Below are positions 8,470 through 20,338 of a DNA stretch of 20,789 nt, in pieces (position 1 is the stretch's first letter; each line of letters opens with the position of its first letter). Below the pieces are notes generated by a model. It saw only the letters and a list, made by a program, of their open reading frames with translations, was not told the DNA's origin and ran no database searches. Made by a program: the position numbers and the translations under genes. This DNA is from a virus: positions 1 to 20,789 of the IMG/VR virus record IMGVR_UViG_3300020469_000323. One strand, written 5' to 3'.

Positions 8470-8850
8470 ATGGTTGCGACAATTAAAGTCGATAATACGA
8501 AGGTAGGGGATGACCTTCACGCAAAGCTACCAGAACCTACGGGATATAGACTTCTGATAGCACTTCCAGAGATCGATGAGAAGACACAGGGCGGAGTAAT
8601 CATGCCTGATGGACTTGTCAAAGACGAATCAACAGCTTCAATTATTGGTTTTGTTATTAAATCAGGGCCAGATGCTTACTCCGACAAGGAAAGGTTTCCT
8701 AACGGGGCTTGGTGCAAAGAGGGCGATTTTGTTATTTTCAGATCGTACTCAGGCACTAGATTTAAAGTATCGGGAAAAGAGTTTCGTCTTATAAACGATG
8801 ACACCGTAGAGGGTGTTGTCGATGATCCAAGGGGGTATACAAGAGTATGA
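8470..8850 (+). CDS. GroES-like co-chaperonin
   Basis: The 126-aa product matches the chaperonin-10 layout: a first strand PTGYRLLIAL (about 23-32), then a Gly-containing mobile loop EKTQGGVIMPDG (37-48). In that loop VIM takes the place of the I-V-L tripeptide by which GroES grips GroEL. After it come I-I-G-F-V-I-K-S-G-P (58-67), KEGDFVIF (83-90) and SGKEFRLINDDTVEGVV (101-117), equivalent to the GroES V-G-D-x-V-x-F and E-x-x-x-x-x-x-D-I-x-A-x-V. It is longer than bacterial GroES (about 97 aa) because of an N-terminal extension and an insert around 68-82. T4 gp31 is a precedent: it replaces GroES so that GroEL can fold the capsid protein. The location between portal and scaffold fits that use. 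The stop overlaps the scaffold start (ATGA). Confidence 0.82.
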   Translation: MVATIKVDNTKVGDDLHAKLPEPTGYRLLIALPEIDEKTQGGVIMPDGLVKDESTASIIGFVIKSGPDAYSDKERFPNGAWCKEGDFVIFRSYSGTRFKVSGKEFRLINDDTVEGVVDDPRGYTRV

Positions 8851-14609: not shown

Positions 14610-14855
14610 ATGCCCCGAAATTATAGAAAAGAATACGATAGTTACCACAAATCTTCTACACAGAAGAAGAAAAGAGCATCTCGAAACACGGCACGATCTA
14701 AGATGGTTAAAGCAGGTAAGGCAAAAAAAGGTGATGGAAAAGACGTTGATCACAAGAATGGAAACCCTCGTGATAACTCTAGAAAAAACCTTACGATGAA
14801 AACAAAAGCTAAAAACAGGAGTTTCCCTAGAAACTCTAAAGCCAAGAAACGGTAG
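14610..14855 (+). CDS. Minimal HNH-motif protein, 81 aa
   Basis: The product begins MPRNYRKEYDSYHKSSTQKK. After a basic helix it carries KDVDHKNGNPRDNSRKNLTM (44-63), matching the HNH core: D47-H48, then N56, then N60-L61, with a following K-A-K-N-R-S-F. In HNH homing and packaging nucleases the pattern is x-D-H-x-[ND]-G-N-x-x-[DN]-N-x-x-x-N-L-x-x-x-T-x-x-x-N. No flanking Cys pairs or second domain are present, so the protein is a bare motif in a very basic scaffold. Phage HNH proteins near terminase genes assist DNA cutting during packaging; here it lies instead among head completion genes. It may be a nuclease or only a DNA binder. Confidence 0.7.
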   Translation: MPRNYRKEYDSYHKSSTQKKKRASRNTARSKMVKAGKAKKGDGKDVDHKNGNPRDNSRKNLTMKTKAKNRSFPRNSKAKKR

Positions 14856-14861
14856 GATAAA

Positions 14862-15539
14862 ATGGCAGTCGTTACACCAGATTTACCTGACATATTTGAA
14901 GAAGCTTATGAACGCGCAGGTCTAGAGCTAAACACAGGTTACGACCTTCGAACAGCGAGGCGTAGCCTTAATATCATGTTGCTCGAATGGCAGAACAGAG
15001 GCCTCAATCTTTTTACGGTTGATTCAGGTGTTTTAAATCTAAGCTCAGGAACAGCAACCTACTCTATGCCCATAGACACTATAGATGTAATCGAGCATCA
15101 AATAAGGACTGGAACAGGAACAAATCAAGTTGATGCAGCATTGCAACGCATATCTGTATCTACTTACGCAGCTCAATCTAATAAAAATACACAGGGTAAG
15201 CCTAGTCAAATATTTGTTCAAAGACTGGCTACAGAAACAAAAGTAACACTTTGGCCCGTTCCTGACACAGATTATATTTTGGCTTTTCATCGATTAAAGG
15301 GAATAGATGGCTTGGCAACGGGCGTTGGCACAACAGCGGCTATACCGCCTAGGTTTGTTCCGTGTCTTGTTGCAGGTCTTGCATATCAAATAGCTATGAA
15401 AAAACCAGAAGCAATAGCCAGAGTTGTTCCTTTAAAGCAAGAATATGAATATCAGTTTGAGCTTGCAGCAGGTGAAGATGCTGAAACAGCATCAATCAAA
15501 TTTGTGCCATACAATACATTTATGTTAGGTGGTGGATGA
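14862..15539 (+). CDS. Head-tail adaptor protein (P22 gp4-like)
   Basis: The 225-aa product starts MAVVTPDLPDIFEEAYERAG and continues DLRTARRSLNIMLLEWQNRG (about 28-47), the signature of the gp4-type adaptors that sit below the portal. A beta domain follows with GVLNLSSGTATYSMPIDTID, TLWPVPDTDYILAFHRL (about 130-146) and PPRFVPCLVAGLAYQIAMKK (about 162-181). Adaptors close the DNA-filled head and connect to the tail. The length is near that of P22 gp4 (166) plus an insertion. GTAGGATAAA supplies the ribosome binding site. The stop overlaps the next start (ATGA). Confidence 0.8.
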   Translation: MAVVTPDLPDIFEEAYERAGLELNTGYDLRTARRSLNIMLLEWQNRGLNLFTVDSGVLNLSSGTATYSMPIDTIDVIEHQIRTGTGTNQVDAALQRISVSTYAAQSNKNTQGKPSQIFVQRLATETKVTLWPVPDTDYILAFHRLKGIDGLATGVGTTAAIPPRFVPCLVAGLAYQIAMKKPEAIARVVPLKQEYEYQFELAAGEDAETASIKFVPYNTFMLGGG

Positions 15540-16390
15540 CAACTGCTAGAAGTAAATATGCTTTCGGTTTCTGCGACAGAACTGGCTTCAGGTATCCGCT
15601 GAATGAGCTTGTTGATGAGTTCAAGAATGGCGTAAAGACTGGACTAAGAGTTGGTCGGGATGTTGCTGATGGCGATCATCCTCAAAACTTTTTGGGCAGG
15701 GTTAGAATATTTGATCCTCAAAGTCTTGCACACGCTAGGCCAGATAGGTCTTTAGAAGAAAGCAGACAGTTGTTTGGATTTTCTCCTGTATGGAACCCTG
15801 CTCAATTTATGACAGGAGCTGTTGGTAGAGTTGCCATAAGTTTCGATGAGGGCGTGGTGAACGTTACAGGTTCTTCAGCCTCATCTTCTGTTGGCTCTGT
15901 TGTGGCTAATACATATAGCGCAAATCTAACTGCTCCAAATGCCGCTGTAGGTGCGGTTGGGACGGTTACCCTACTAGGCGTAGGAATAACTGCATTTCCA
16001 AATGGTGTTTCTGCCGTGGGAACTACAGGCGTAGCTACTTTATCTACCAATGTAGCACAATCTTTCGCAGTTACTGTAACTACAGGGTATAGTGGTGGTA
16101 ATAAGTTTTACATCGATGGTATAGAATCTCCTACAGGAAATCTTAGCGAAGGAAATACCTACATATTTGATCAATCACATTCGAGTAATAGTGGTCACCC
16201 ACTAAGGTTTTCAACAACATCAAACGGAACCCATTCAGGTGGTGTGGAGTACACAACAGGCGTTACAACTAGCGGAACCCCCGGAAACGCAGGTGCTTAT
16301 ACTCAGATCGTGATAGCTTCGGGCGCACCAACATTACACTACTATTGCACTAACCATAGTGGTATGGGAGGCCAAGTGAATACACCTTAA
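15536..16390 (+). CDS. Structural protein with C-terminal cupredoxin-like domain
   Basis: The 284-aa product has two parts. The N-terminal ~95 residues form a conserved head-neck domain (SKYAFGFCDRTGFRYPLNEL, then GLRVGRDVADGDHPQNFLGR), followed by a repetitive Gly/Val/Thr linker (about 96-180, for example VGTVTLLGVGITAFP). The C-terminal domain (about 188-280) carries SGHPLRFST with H221, and HYYCTNHSGMGGQV with C271, H274 and M277. His ... Cys-x2-His-x2-Met is the full type-1 copper ligand set, with the same spacing as in amicyanin. A related domain occurs in the 405-aa fibre at 19121. Copper binding in the phage protein is inferred. It is probably a neck or fibre-attachment protein; the start overlaps the adaptor gene. 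Confidence 0.75.
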   Translation: MTTARSKYAFGFCDRTGFRYPLNELVDEFKNGVKTGLRVGRDVADGDHPQNFLGRVRIFDPQSLAHARPDRSLEESRQLFGFSPVWNPAQFMTGAVGRVAISFDEGVVNVTGSSASSSVGSVVANTYSANLTAPNAAVGAVGTVTLLGVGITAFPNGVSAVGTTGVATLSTNVAQSFAVTVTTGYSGGNKFYIDGIESPTGNLSEGNTYIFDQSHSSNSGHPLRFSTTSNGTHSGGVEYTTGVTTSGTPGNAGAYTQIVIASGAPTLHYYCTNHSGMGGQVNTP

Positions 16391-16985: not shown

Positions 16986-16998
16986 GTTCAAATGAACT
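16985..16998. repeat. Palindrome variant AGTTCAAATGAACT, copy 6
   Basis: The arms AGTTCA and TGAACT are intact and only the centre differs (AA instead of AT). The last base of the previous stop and the ATG of the SU10-type adaptor both lie inside the element, so it sits on a stop-start junction with no room for a Shine-Dalgarno. Confidence 0.65.
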
Positions 16999-17651
16999 AT
17001 ACAGAGTTAACACAGGCTATACAGGACTACACGGAGAACACAGAGACTTCTTTTGTGGCTAATATTCCTACGTTTGTTCGACAGGCAGAAGAAAAGATAC
17101 TTCGTCAGGTTCTTATTCCAGAGCTTCGAAAGGCTTCTACTGGTAGTACAGTTGCTAACTCTCAATATCTAGCCAGACCCACAGACATGATCGCAGTGTA
17201 TTCTATAGCCATCACAGATGGCAGTGGTAATTATAGCTATCTTCTCAATAAGAATGTTACCTATATGAAGGAGGCGTATCCTGCAGGAGATACTGGTTTA
17301 CCTAAGTATTATGGTCAGTTTGTGGGAGGAACCACTACCTCACCGGGCTTTTTTATATTAGCGCCAACGCCAAATGCTGCGTATCTTGCTCAAATAAACT
17401 ACTATTACGATCCACCATCTATTGTTACAGCAGGTACAACATGGTTAGGTGACAATGCCGAAACAGCTTTGCTTTACGGCTCATTACTAGAAGCATATTC
17501 GTTTATGAAGGGCGATACAGATCTTATGAACGAGTATAGAAAACAACATCAGCTCGCTATGCAAGCCTTTACTAAAGTGGGTGGCTTACTGCAACAAGAC
17601 GGTTATAGAGATGGCGAAGAGGGATACAGCAAAGACGAGAACAATGTTTAA
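16992..17651 (+). CDS. Tail adaptor protein (SU10-adaptor-like)
   Basis: The 219-aa product starts MNYTELTQAIQDYTENTETS, then FVANIPTFVRQAEEKILRQV, a typical start of the adaptor family named after phage SU10. A beta domain follows with STVANSQYLARPTDMIAVYS, SYLLNKNVTYMKEAYP and GFFILAPTPNAAYLAQINYY (about 118-137). A helix bundle with TAGTTWLGDNAETALLYGSL and MNEYRKQHQLAMQAF closes it. Such proteins form a ring between the head adaptor and the tail tube or nozzle. No Shine-Dalgarno precedes the ATG, which lies within palindrome copy 6. The end overlaps the next gene by eight bases. Confidence 0.78.
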   Translation: MNYTELTQAIQDYTENTETSFVANIPTFVRQAEEKILRQVLIPELRKASTGSTVANSQYLARPTDMIAVYSIAITDGSGNYSYLLNKNVTYMKEAYPAGDTGLPKYYGQFVGGTTTSPGFFILAPTPNAAYLAQINYYYDPPSIVTAGTTWLGDNAETALLYGSLLEAYSFMKGDTDLMNEYRKQHQLAMQAFTKVGGLLQQDGYRDGEEGYSKDENNV

Positions 17652-19120: not shown

Positions 19121-20338
19121 ATGACTATAAACAGAAATTTAGCAAAGTTTGCTCCAAGTATTAACACTTCAGGAAAAGCAGCAGTTGCAACAATCACAGT
19201 TACGGTTGCGTCTGTCGGGGGTAGCAACAAATACCATATTGATGGAACAGATAGGCAAACCGTATCTCTTTCAAAAGGTATTACATATCGTTTTGATAAC
19301 AGTAATAGCACAAACAGCGGGCATCCATTTGTCTTCTCAACAACTTCAGATGGCACACATAATAGCGGTTCAGCATTTACCACAGGAATTACGACAGTTG
19401 GAACCGCAGGTTCTGCAGGTGCTTATGTAGAAGTAACACTAGAACAGGATGCAGCAGCTACCCTTTATTACTATTGTTCTAATCATAGTGGCATGGGCGG
19501 GACAGTAAAAACCGCATATGGTAATTCGAATGTAGTCGAAGATACTAGCCCTCAATTAGGCGGAAGTCTTGATGTAAACGGTAATGCAATCGTATCGGTA
19601 TCAAATGCCAACATTGCAATCACGCCAAACGGTTCTGGTAAAGTTATTCTTGACGGGCTTTCTCATCCAACAGCGGATGGTAGCGCAGGACATGTCTTGA
19701 AGACAGACGGCTCTGGTAATTTAGCATTTGCATCTGTTGGCTCCCTTTCTGGATCAGGGATTGCTAATGTAGTAGATGACAGCTCTCCACAGCTAGGCGG
19801 CAGTTTAGATATTAACGGTAATGACATCGTCTCAACATCTAATGCTAACATAGACATTATTCCTCACGGCACTGGTGACGTTAACTTAGGCGCTGATACA
19901 GTGATGGTTGGCGACAACAACGCCAATGCAACGATTACCACACAAGGTACTGGAGATTTAACTCTAAATACTAACTCAGGGACAAACTCTGGAACGGTAA
20001 CTATCGCTGATGGCGCAAATGCAAACATATCAATTACACCTAATGGATCTGGTAAAGTTGTTATCGATGGAATTAGCCATCCTATAGCAGACGGGAGCAA
20101 TGGACAGGCTCTTGTAACTAACGGTAGTGGTGTTCTTAGTTTCTCCACAATATCAGGCGGTAGTGGTGGTGGAGCCACAGGCGGTGGTAGTGACGAAGTT
20201 TTCTATGAGAACGATCAGGCTGTGACAACCAATTATTCAATAACAGCAAGCCACAACGCCATGAGCGCAGGGCCAATAACAGTAAACAACGGTATAACAG
20301 TAACAGTTCCTTCAGGAGTTAGGTGGGTTGTAGTTTAA
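19121..20338 (+). CDS. Tail fibre protein with cupredoxin-like domain
   Basis: The 405-aa product begins with a short anchor (1-30). A cupredoxin-like domain (about 35-128) follows, containing SGHPFVFST with H68 and YYYCSNHSGMGGTV with C119, H122 and M125. Next are two copies of SPQLGGSLD[VI]NGN (about 143-155 and 222-234), each followed by S-N-A-N-I-x-I-x-P-x-G-x-G. ISITPNGSGKVVIDGISHP follows near 303-321. The C-terminus has YENDQAVTTNYSITASHNAM, then PITVNNGITVTVPSGVRW, a strand repeat typical of trimerising fibre tips. The cupredoxin-like domain is paralogous to that in the protein at 15536. AGGA lies nine bases before the ATG; the stop overlaps the next gene (TAATG). Confidence 0.8.
   Translation: MTINRNLAKFAPSINTSGKAAVATITVTVASVGGSNKYHIDGTDRQTVSLSKGITYRFDNSNSTNSGHPFVFSTTSDGTHNSGSAFTTGITTVGTAGSAGAYVEVTLEQDAAATLYYYCSNHSGMGGTVKTAYGNSNVVEDTSPQLGGSLDVNGNAIVSVSNANIAITPNGSGKVILDGLSHPTADGSAGHVLKTDGSGNLAFASVGSLSGSGIANVVDDSSPQLGGSLDINGNDIVSTSNANIDIIPHGTGDVNLGADTVMVGDNNANATITTQGTGDLTLNTNSGTNSGTVTIADGANANISITPNGSGKVVIDGISHPIADGSNGQALVTNGSGVLSFSTISGGSGGGATGGGSDEVFYENDQAVTTNYSITASHNAMSAGPITVNNGITVTVPSGVRWVVV

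Follow-up and report, generated by a model that had tools for sequence, protein, structure and literature searches.

Two virion protein genes with a related domain

The window, as we call the whole stretch of 20,789 nucleotides analyzed, is, judged by its sequence, a 20.8-kb piece of a marine phage genome like those of HTVC027P, HTVC023P and psg01. The nearest relatives of its terminase are found in phage 023Pt_psg01 (60%) and in the Pelagibacter phages HTVC027P (59%) and HTVC023P (52%), and the order of GroES, capsid, adaptor and tail genes agrees with that of these relatives. The phage encodes a GroES-like co-chaperonin (8470-8850; PF00166, E 8e-11), and a GroES-like gene is annotated also in HTVC027P, HTVC023P and psg01. 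Within the structural gene block lies a small HNH endonuclease-like ORF (14610-14855; PF13392, E 6.5e-8). Two separate genes of the SU10 adaptor family (14862-15539 and 16992-17651; PF24175, E 6e-10 and 2e-21) flank the first of the genes discussed here and form a second pair of related virion genes in the window.

Gene 1 (15536-16390, plus strand) is an open reading frame for a 284-aa virion-type protein with PHROG tail-fibre matches and a PF24175 neighbor on each side. It consists of a conserved N-terminal part (15536-15844), a Gly/Ser-rich linker and a C-terminal predicted cupredoxin domain, dom1 (approximately 16067-16384, plus strand). The AlphaFold2 model of the N-terminal part is poor past the first 50 residues and yields no fold. 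Some relatives of this part have a CxxC...CxxC arrangement resembling a zinc ribbon (L044:9605-9730, L084:3548-3670); at this position a single CDRTGF stands in gene 1 of the window, and in most relatives the sequence there is SDRSGF.

Gene 2 (19121-20338, plus strand), also an open reading frame, encodes a 405-aa short tail-fibre-like protein, recognized as such by its matches to PHROG tail-fibre and baseplate-connector families (phrog_677, 30742, 693 and 5342) and by its fibre repeats. An N-terminal cupredoxin domain is followed by TSPQLGGSLDVNGN and ITPNGSGKV repeats and then by the fibre tip. The original prediction had placed a copper-ligand domain at 19223-19504 of this gene and a second domain of the same kind in another virion protein. 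The domain is present there, and in its full extent it is slightly wider (dom2, approximately 19181-19513, plus strand); a PF00127 match of the trimmed domain, an AlphaFold2 model and PDB neighbors are the evidence for it. All four residues named as ligands in the fibre are in place, namely H68 (codon at 19322-19324, plus strand), which occupies a column conserved in 97.9% of 234 copies, and the loop C119-x2-H122-x2-M125 (CSNHSGM; 19475-19495, plus strand), which aligns with C, H and M of a Pfam Copper-bind domain. The flanking motifs GHPFVFSTTSDGTH and YYCSNHSGMGG are likewise present. The partner copy in gene 1 has the predicted ligands H221 (codon at 16196-16198, plus strand), aligned with H68 of dom2, and C271-x2-H274-x2-M277 (CTNHSGM; 16346-16366, plus strand), aligned with C119, H122 and M125, within the motifs GHPLRFSTTSNGTH and YYCTNHSGMGG.

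Predicted fold and family membership

Dom2, when trimmed, passes the cut-off of the Copper-bind family PF00127 (23.0 bits against 21.2, and 22.5 bits in a second search), while the whole 405-aa fibre stays just under it with 20.3 bits. The Pfam scan of gene 1 gave no hit at dom1. Nine of 47 family members match PF00127 (E 0.01), single members match models of sulfocyanin, plastocyanin, halocyanin and rusticyanin, and most distant members lie below Pfam detection. The AlphaFold2 model of dom2, built from a 47-sequence alignment, has a mean pLDDT of 96.4, a pTM of 0.89 and eight strands, which in prediction corresponds to the Greek-key beta-sandwich of seven to eight strands that defines the cupredoxin fold. 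Its best VIA-align match is 2dv6 (Z 9.5, 95 aligned residues, 2.4 A), the N-terminal cupredoxin domain of a three-domain nitrite reductase; rusticyanin and laccases are the other best PDB matches. Rusticyanin is also the top Foldseek match (VIA-align Z 8.8), and copper proteins of the cupredoxin fold fill 50 of the 50 VIA-align matches listed. Foldseek E-values against the PDB are at best 3.5e-3 and many VIA Z-scores are middling. Residues 171-284 of the AlphaFold2 model of gene 1 matched the same type-1 copper proteins as dom2, with a Z of 9.0. Sequence searches of the PDB found no solved structure matching any family member. Among the BFVD neighbors were "beta-sandwich proteins" of Marseillevirus-like and pithovirus-like viruses (LCMAC201/202, LCPAC302/304; E approximately 7e-6 to 5e-5).

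When profiles were compared with hhalign, plastocyanin-like domains of two cellular proteins which score over the PF00127 cut-off (L254 and L257) aligned with a probability of 95.8% (E 6.5e-9) and with H, C, H and M in register, that is, with His, Cys, His and axial Met at the positions they hold in known type-1 copper sites. Bacterial pseudoazurin-like proteins were also tried as profile partners, and there the C-H-M loop alone was aligned, with a probability of 1.5%. From the models and profiles together the domain is shown, by prediction, to be a cupredoxin.

We also considered an Ig-like domain. Neither the Pfam scans of the 47 members nor those of ten more distant ones found any Ig family, PDB sequence searches returned only weak antibody hits, and structure searches placed cupredoxins first.

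Conservation of the copper site

Viral contigs, genome contigs and phage records together supplied 234 distinct copies in which conservation was assessed. No other column of the domain is as well conserved as those of the four ligands (first H 97.9%, C 98.3%, second H 97.9%, M 98.7%), the next in rank having 97.0%. A scan of viral contigs with patterns that contain no ligand residues found 69 distinct new copies, 68 of which have all four ligands. Ligands were lost in six copies, each of which lost two, three or four of them; independent loss would be expected to affect 16.6 copies and the minimum in 20,000 permutations was 13, although this permutation ignores descent and the figure is not a formal probability. 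Such conservation, the result of the ligand-free scan and the loss of ligands in groups make up the pattern that a metal site predicts, and there are strong grounds to think that each domain binds one type-1 copper. A point against copper binding is the scarcity of copper in surface seawater, where it is strongly complexed.

One of the degenerate copies is found in gp130 of phage S-CREM2 (L260:36590-41512), a protein detected in the virion by mass spectrometry with 24 peptides. Its copy has no metal ligands, so that gp130 cannot serve as mass-spectrometric support for a metal-bearing copy in a virion; nor is gp130 clearly orthologous to the protein of S-B68, in whose copy all four ligands are kept. 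The scaffold can evidently outlive its metal. This degenerate copy, seen in a virion protein by mass spectrometry, and the few others that have lost ligands are in accordance with a view in which the domain is plain Ig-like beta-sandwich decoration that has no functional metal and merely inherited its H/C/H/M residues from a cupredoxin ancestor. The deposited Ig annotations of relatives in P-HM2 and MED4-213, the resemblance of the YYC motif to an Ig motif and the antibody chains among the weak sequence and Foldseek hits point the same way. However, no other position is as well conserved as the four ligands, no copy has lost just one of them, and cupredoxins outrank Ig chains in the structure searches, which makes plain decoration quite improbable. 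Since each of the window copies has only one Cys, an Ig disulfide is not possible in them.

Relationship between the two domains

The fibre and gene 1 share one domain, as predicted: BLASTP aligns 65 identical residues of 126 (52%), with 70% positives and an E-value of 7e-34. Because similarity of this extent spans 126 amino acids, it is not confined to short motifs, and together with the 234 copies it rules out a chance motif match. At the DNA level dom1 and dom2 also align along the whole domain, with differences scattered over it and synonymous sites saturated. The evidence supports the view that two virion-type proteins share one kind of domain, which has the ligand set of a type-1 copper site.

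The original prediction offered two readings of this similarity, an internal duplication of one domain within the phage and the shared use of a module, and of these the second stood. For a recent duplication speak the 52% protein identity, the common motifs and the distance of only about 3 kb between the copies. Trees of 151 and 50 rows, built on the 103 columns of the domain, nevertheless place the two in different clades: the companions of dom1 are C-terminal domains from further gene-1-type proteins (7 rows; 95/85 and 99/87), and those of dom2 are domains from other fibres, in a 25-row clade (99/89; 151-row tree), while in the 50-row tree each sub-family forms a single clade (99/87). Trees in which dom1 and dom2 were held together were rejected (AU p = 5e-4), as were those in which the two sub-families were (p = 2e-6). 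The two are not nearest relatives of each other, as a recent internal duplicate would be; each has closer relatives in other phages. As the domain is short, its deep branching is not resolved by these 103 columns, and a recent duplication is nevertheless excluded. Saturation of synonymous sites between the copies likewise argues against it. The two copies do not undergo gene conversion, because the identity of dom1 and dom2 is the same within genomes (59.7%) as between genomes (59.5%). Both domains are under purifying selection (dN/dS of 0.03-0.22 in comparison with orthologues). A recent duplication in the window phage thus has a practically negligible probability, and for the lineages sampled this reading is already refuted.

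All eight of the closest relatives seen (L003-L008, L014 and L017; L167 and L008 are one contig) retain this pair, with about 3 kb between its members. The window phage appears, from the trees, to be a carrier of two family members from long-separated lineages. The N-terminal part of gene 1 was found in 59 ORFs, in 25 of which the cupredoxin domain is missing, and the gene-1 homologues of the cultured phages HTVC027P and HTVC023P lack it as well, no copy being present in the scanned stretches of these two phages. Because this N-terminal part occurs both with and without it, the domain is a mobile module. Paralogy, shuffling of the module and its conservation are shown by these data.

Distribution in phages and cells

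Of 50,697 phage records, 354 carry the domain, at 793 places in all, and several copies per genome are usual. Most carriers (341 of the 354) are named Synechococcus, Prochlorococcus or cyanophages, and the other 13 are Pelagibacter, Methylophilales and "Marine" phages and two uncultured or unassigned records. Its position in the protein varies, from N-terminal to middle, C-terminal and tandem. The proteins that bear it are annotated as tail fibre, baseplate wedge tail fibre connector gp9 or virion structural protein; thus the carrier in S-ShM2 is the T4-like gp9 baseplate wedge tail fibre connector, those in Baldr, HTVC028P, Mosig, Melnitz and P-SSM2 are tail fibres, and the one in S-TIM5 is a virion structural protein encoded two genes from the portal. 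The carrier in P-HM2 (L241) is annotated "contains PF07686" (Ig V-set) and the one in MED4-213 "Immunoglobulin domain-containing"; these labels were perhaps misled by the YYC motif.

The cellular set comprises 80 genome loci, in which signals and anchors were read by eye. Some of these, of the gene-1 type, resemble phage fragments (L084, L085, L086, L088, L093 and L103), so the cellular share is below 80. Gammaproteobacterial copies (L104, L120) follow lipoprotein-type signals and cadherin repeats, those of marine group II archaea (L130, L107) follow collagen-like repeats, and two SAR86 copies (L139, L140) are small lipoproteins. A protein of Cellvibrionales (L157) has tandem copies and a C-terminal anchor, copies in Bacteroidetes (L089) and SAR86 (L123) lie inside giant Ig/FG-GAP/RTX proteins, and some cellular copies are preceded by Big/FG-GAP/RTX repeats. 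The common theme of the carriers is display on the outer surface. The possible adhesive role mentioned in the original prediction is suggested solely by the company that the domain keeps in cellular adhesins.

Comparison with known systems and possible role

Known cupredoxins carry electrons, in soluble form or linked to membranes, or are domains of enzymes. With the plastocyanin/azurin family (PF00127) the phage domain shares the predicted fold and a ligand set of His and Cys-x2-His-xn-Met in register; it differs in being located inside fibre and neck proteins and surface adhesins instead of forming a free periplasmic electron carrier, in having a long conserved FSTTSDGTH...GTxGSAGAY between the ligands, and in that most of its members lie under the Pfam cut-off. 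Amicyanin has a short type-1 loop with the spacing Cys-x2-His-x2-Met. This short loop is common to both (PDB 2vmj has the CTPHPFM loop in its title), but sequence identity to amicyanin and rusticyanin is low (approximately 15-20%) and the phage domain has no known electron-transfer partner. Plastocyanin is an auxiliary metabolic gene of cyanophages, where it is a stand-alone electron carrier gene, so a cupredoxin is encoded by marine phages there too, but as a separate gene and not as a domain of a virion protein. Ig-like domains such as Hoc of T4 are modular, displayed on the virion and present in many phages (PMC10385173). Like them the phage cupredoxin is a modular beta-sandwich on virions, but Hoc-type domains belong to a different fold family and have no metal site, whereas here the ligands are the most conserved residues. 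A metal has likewise been proposed in tail fibres of marine phages in the case of iron HxH motifs (PMC11705849), although in our case another metal is expected and the predicted type-1 site is folded within one domain.

We favor, with a probability of roughly 0.7, the reading that dom1 and dom2 are copper-binding cupredoxin modules of virion proteins. They would be members of a single family of marine cupredoxin modules whose ligand set, His and then Cys-x2-His-x2-Met, is complete and which has been shuffled among fibre, neck and baseplate proteins of phages and surface proteins of cells. In the window phage one copy closes a neck or fibre protein at its C-terminus and the other is the N-terminal domain of a short tail fibre. 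Each domain most likely takes up one copper ion, which would clamp the H...C-H-M loops of the beta-sandwich into a rigid, surface-exposed unit. On the virion such a unit may serve for spacing or docking, like the Ig-like domains of other phages; this structural or docking use is the weakest step of the proposal and we give it somewhat less than even odds.

The N-terminal end of a fibre is usually the one proximal to the virion. Since dom2 is at that end, its location argues against its being the receptor-binding tip of the window fibre. Two further uses of the copper were considered. One is a redox module in which copper would cycle between Cu(I) and Cu(II) on the virion surface, exchanging electrons with a partner on the host surface or in the periplasm or reacting with oxidants, and would thereby serve host recognition or trigger DNA ejection. 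The complete type-1 ligand set with axial Met is that of electron-transfer cupredoxins, rusticyanin and the N-terminal domain of three-domain nitrite reductase are among the nearest folds, and many hosts are photosynthetic or respiratory plankton. On the other hand, no partner protein is linked to the domain and no linked partner gene was seen within the window, dom2 lies away from the tip of gene 2, and the adhesins and lipoproteins that bear the cellular copies showed no redox domain, so that a redox module, including its service in recognition or ejection, seems improbable.

The other is mimicry of copper acquisition, in which bound copper would dock the virion to copper-uptake or copper-handling proteins of the host surface as a copper Trojan horse. 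Iron-binding HxH fibre sites and a Trojan-horse hypothesis have been published for marine phages (PMC11705849), and among phage records the carriers of the domain are almost exclusively marine, while the surface proteins that bear it belong to organisms from the same waters. We consider such mimicry highly improbable, as evidence for a receptor is absent, the domain is often away from the receptor-binding end, and it is common to phages of very different hosts.

Returning to the copper-binding module of virion proteins, the cupredoxin fold and the type-1 site are already known, while the virion-borne, marine and modular form appears undescribed; a literature search with subscription journals mostly outside its coverage found no description of one. 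So far the domain seems to have gone unrecognized, in marine phages as well as in the surface proteins of microbes from the sea, and has been labelled hypothetical, Ig-like or simply tail fibre. An annotator could also take it for an auxiliary metabolic gene, a plastocyanin or a nitrite reductase, and it should not enter the count of such genes. In its boldest and unlikely form, the proposal would be that blue-copper centres are part of the fibres, neck and baseplate of many marine phages, among them T4-like cyanophages and pelagiphages, and that the copper takes part in recognizing the host or in triggering infection, either by its redox state or by an exchange with copper proteins of the host surface. 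The question is open to direct test on cultured phages. If the copper-binding reading is true, a complete type-1 site is under strong selection in virion proteins from 354 or more deposited phage records, almost all of them cyanophages and pelagiphages, and also in the adhesins and lipoproteins of plankton that occurs together with them, and copper would become one more of the few metals that have been proposed for phage tails.
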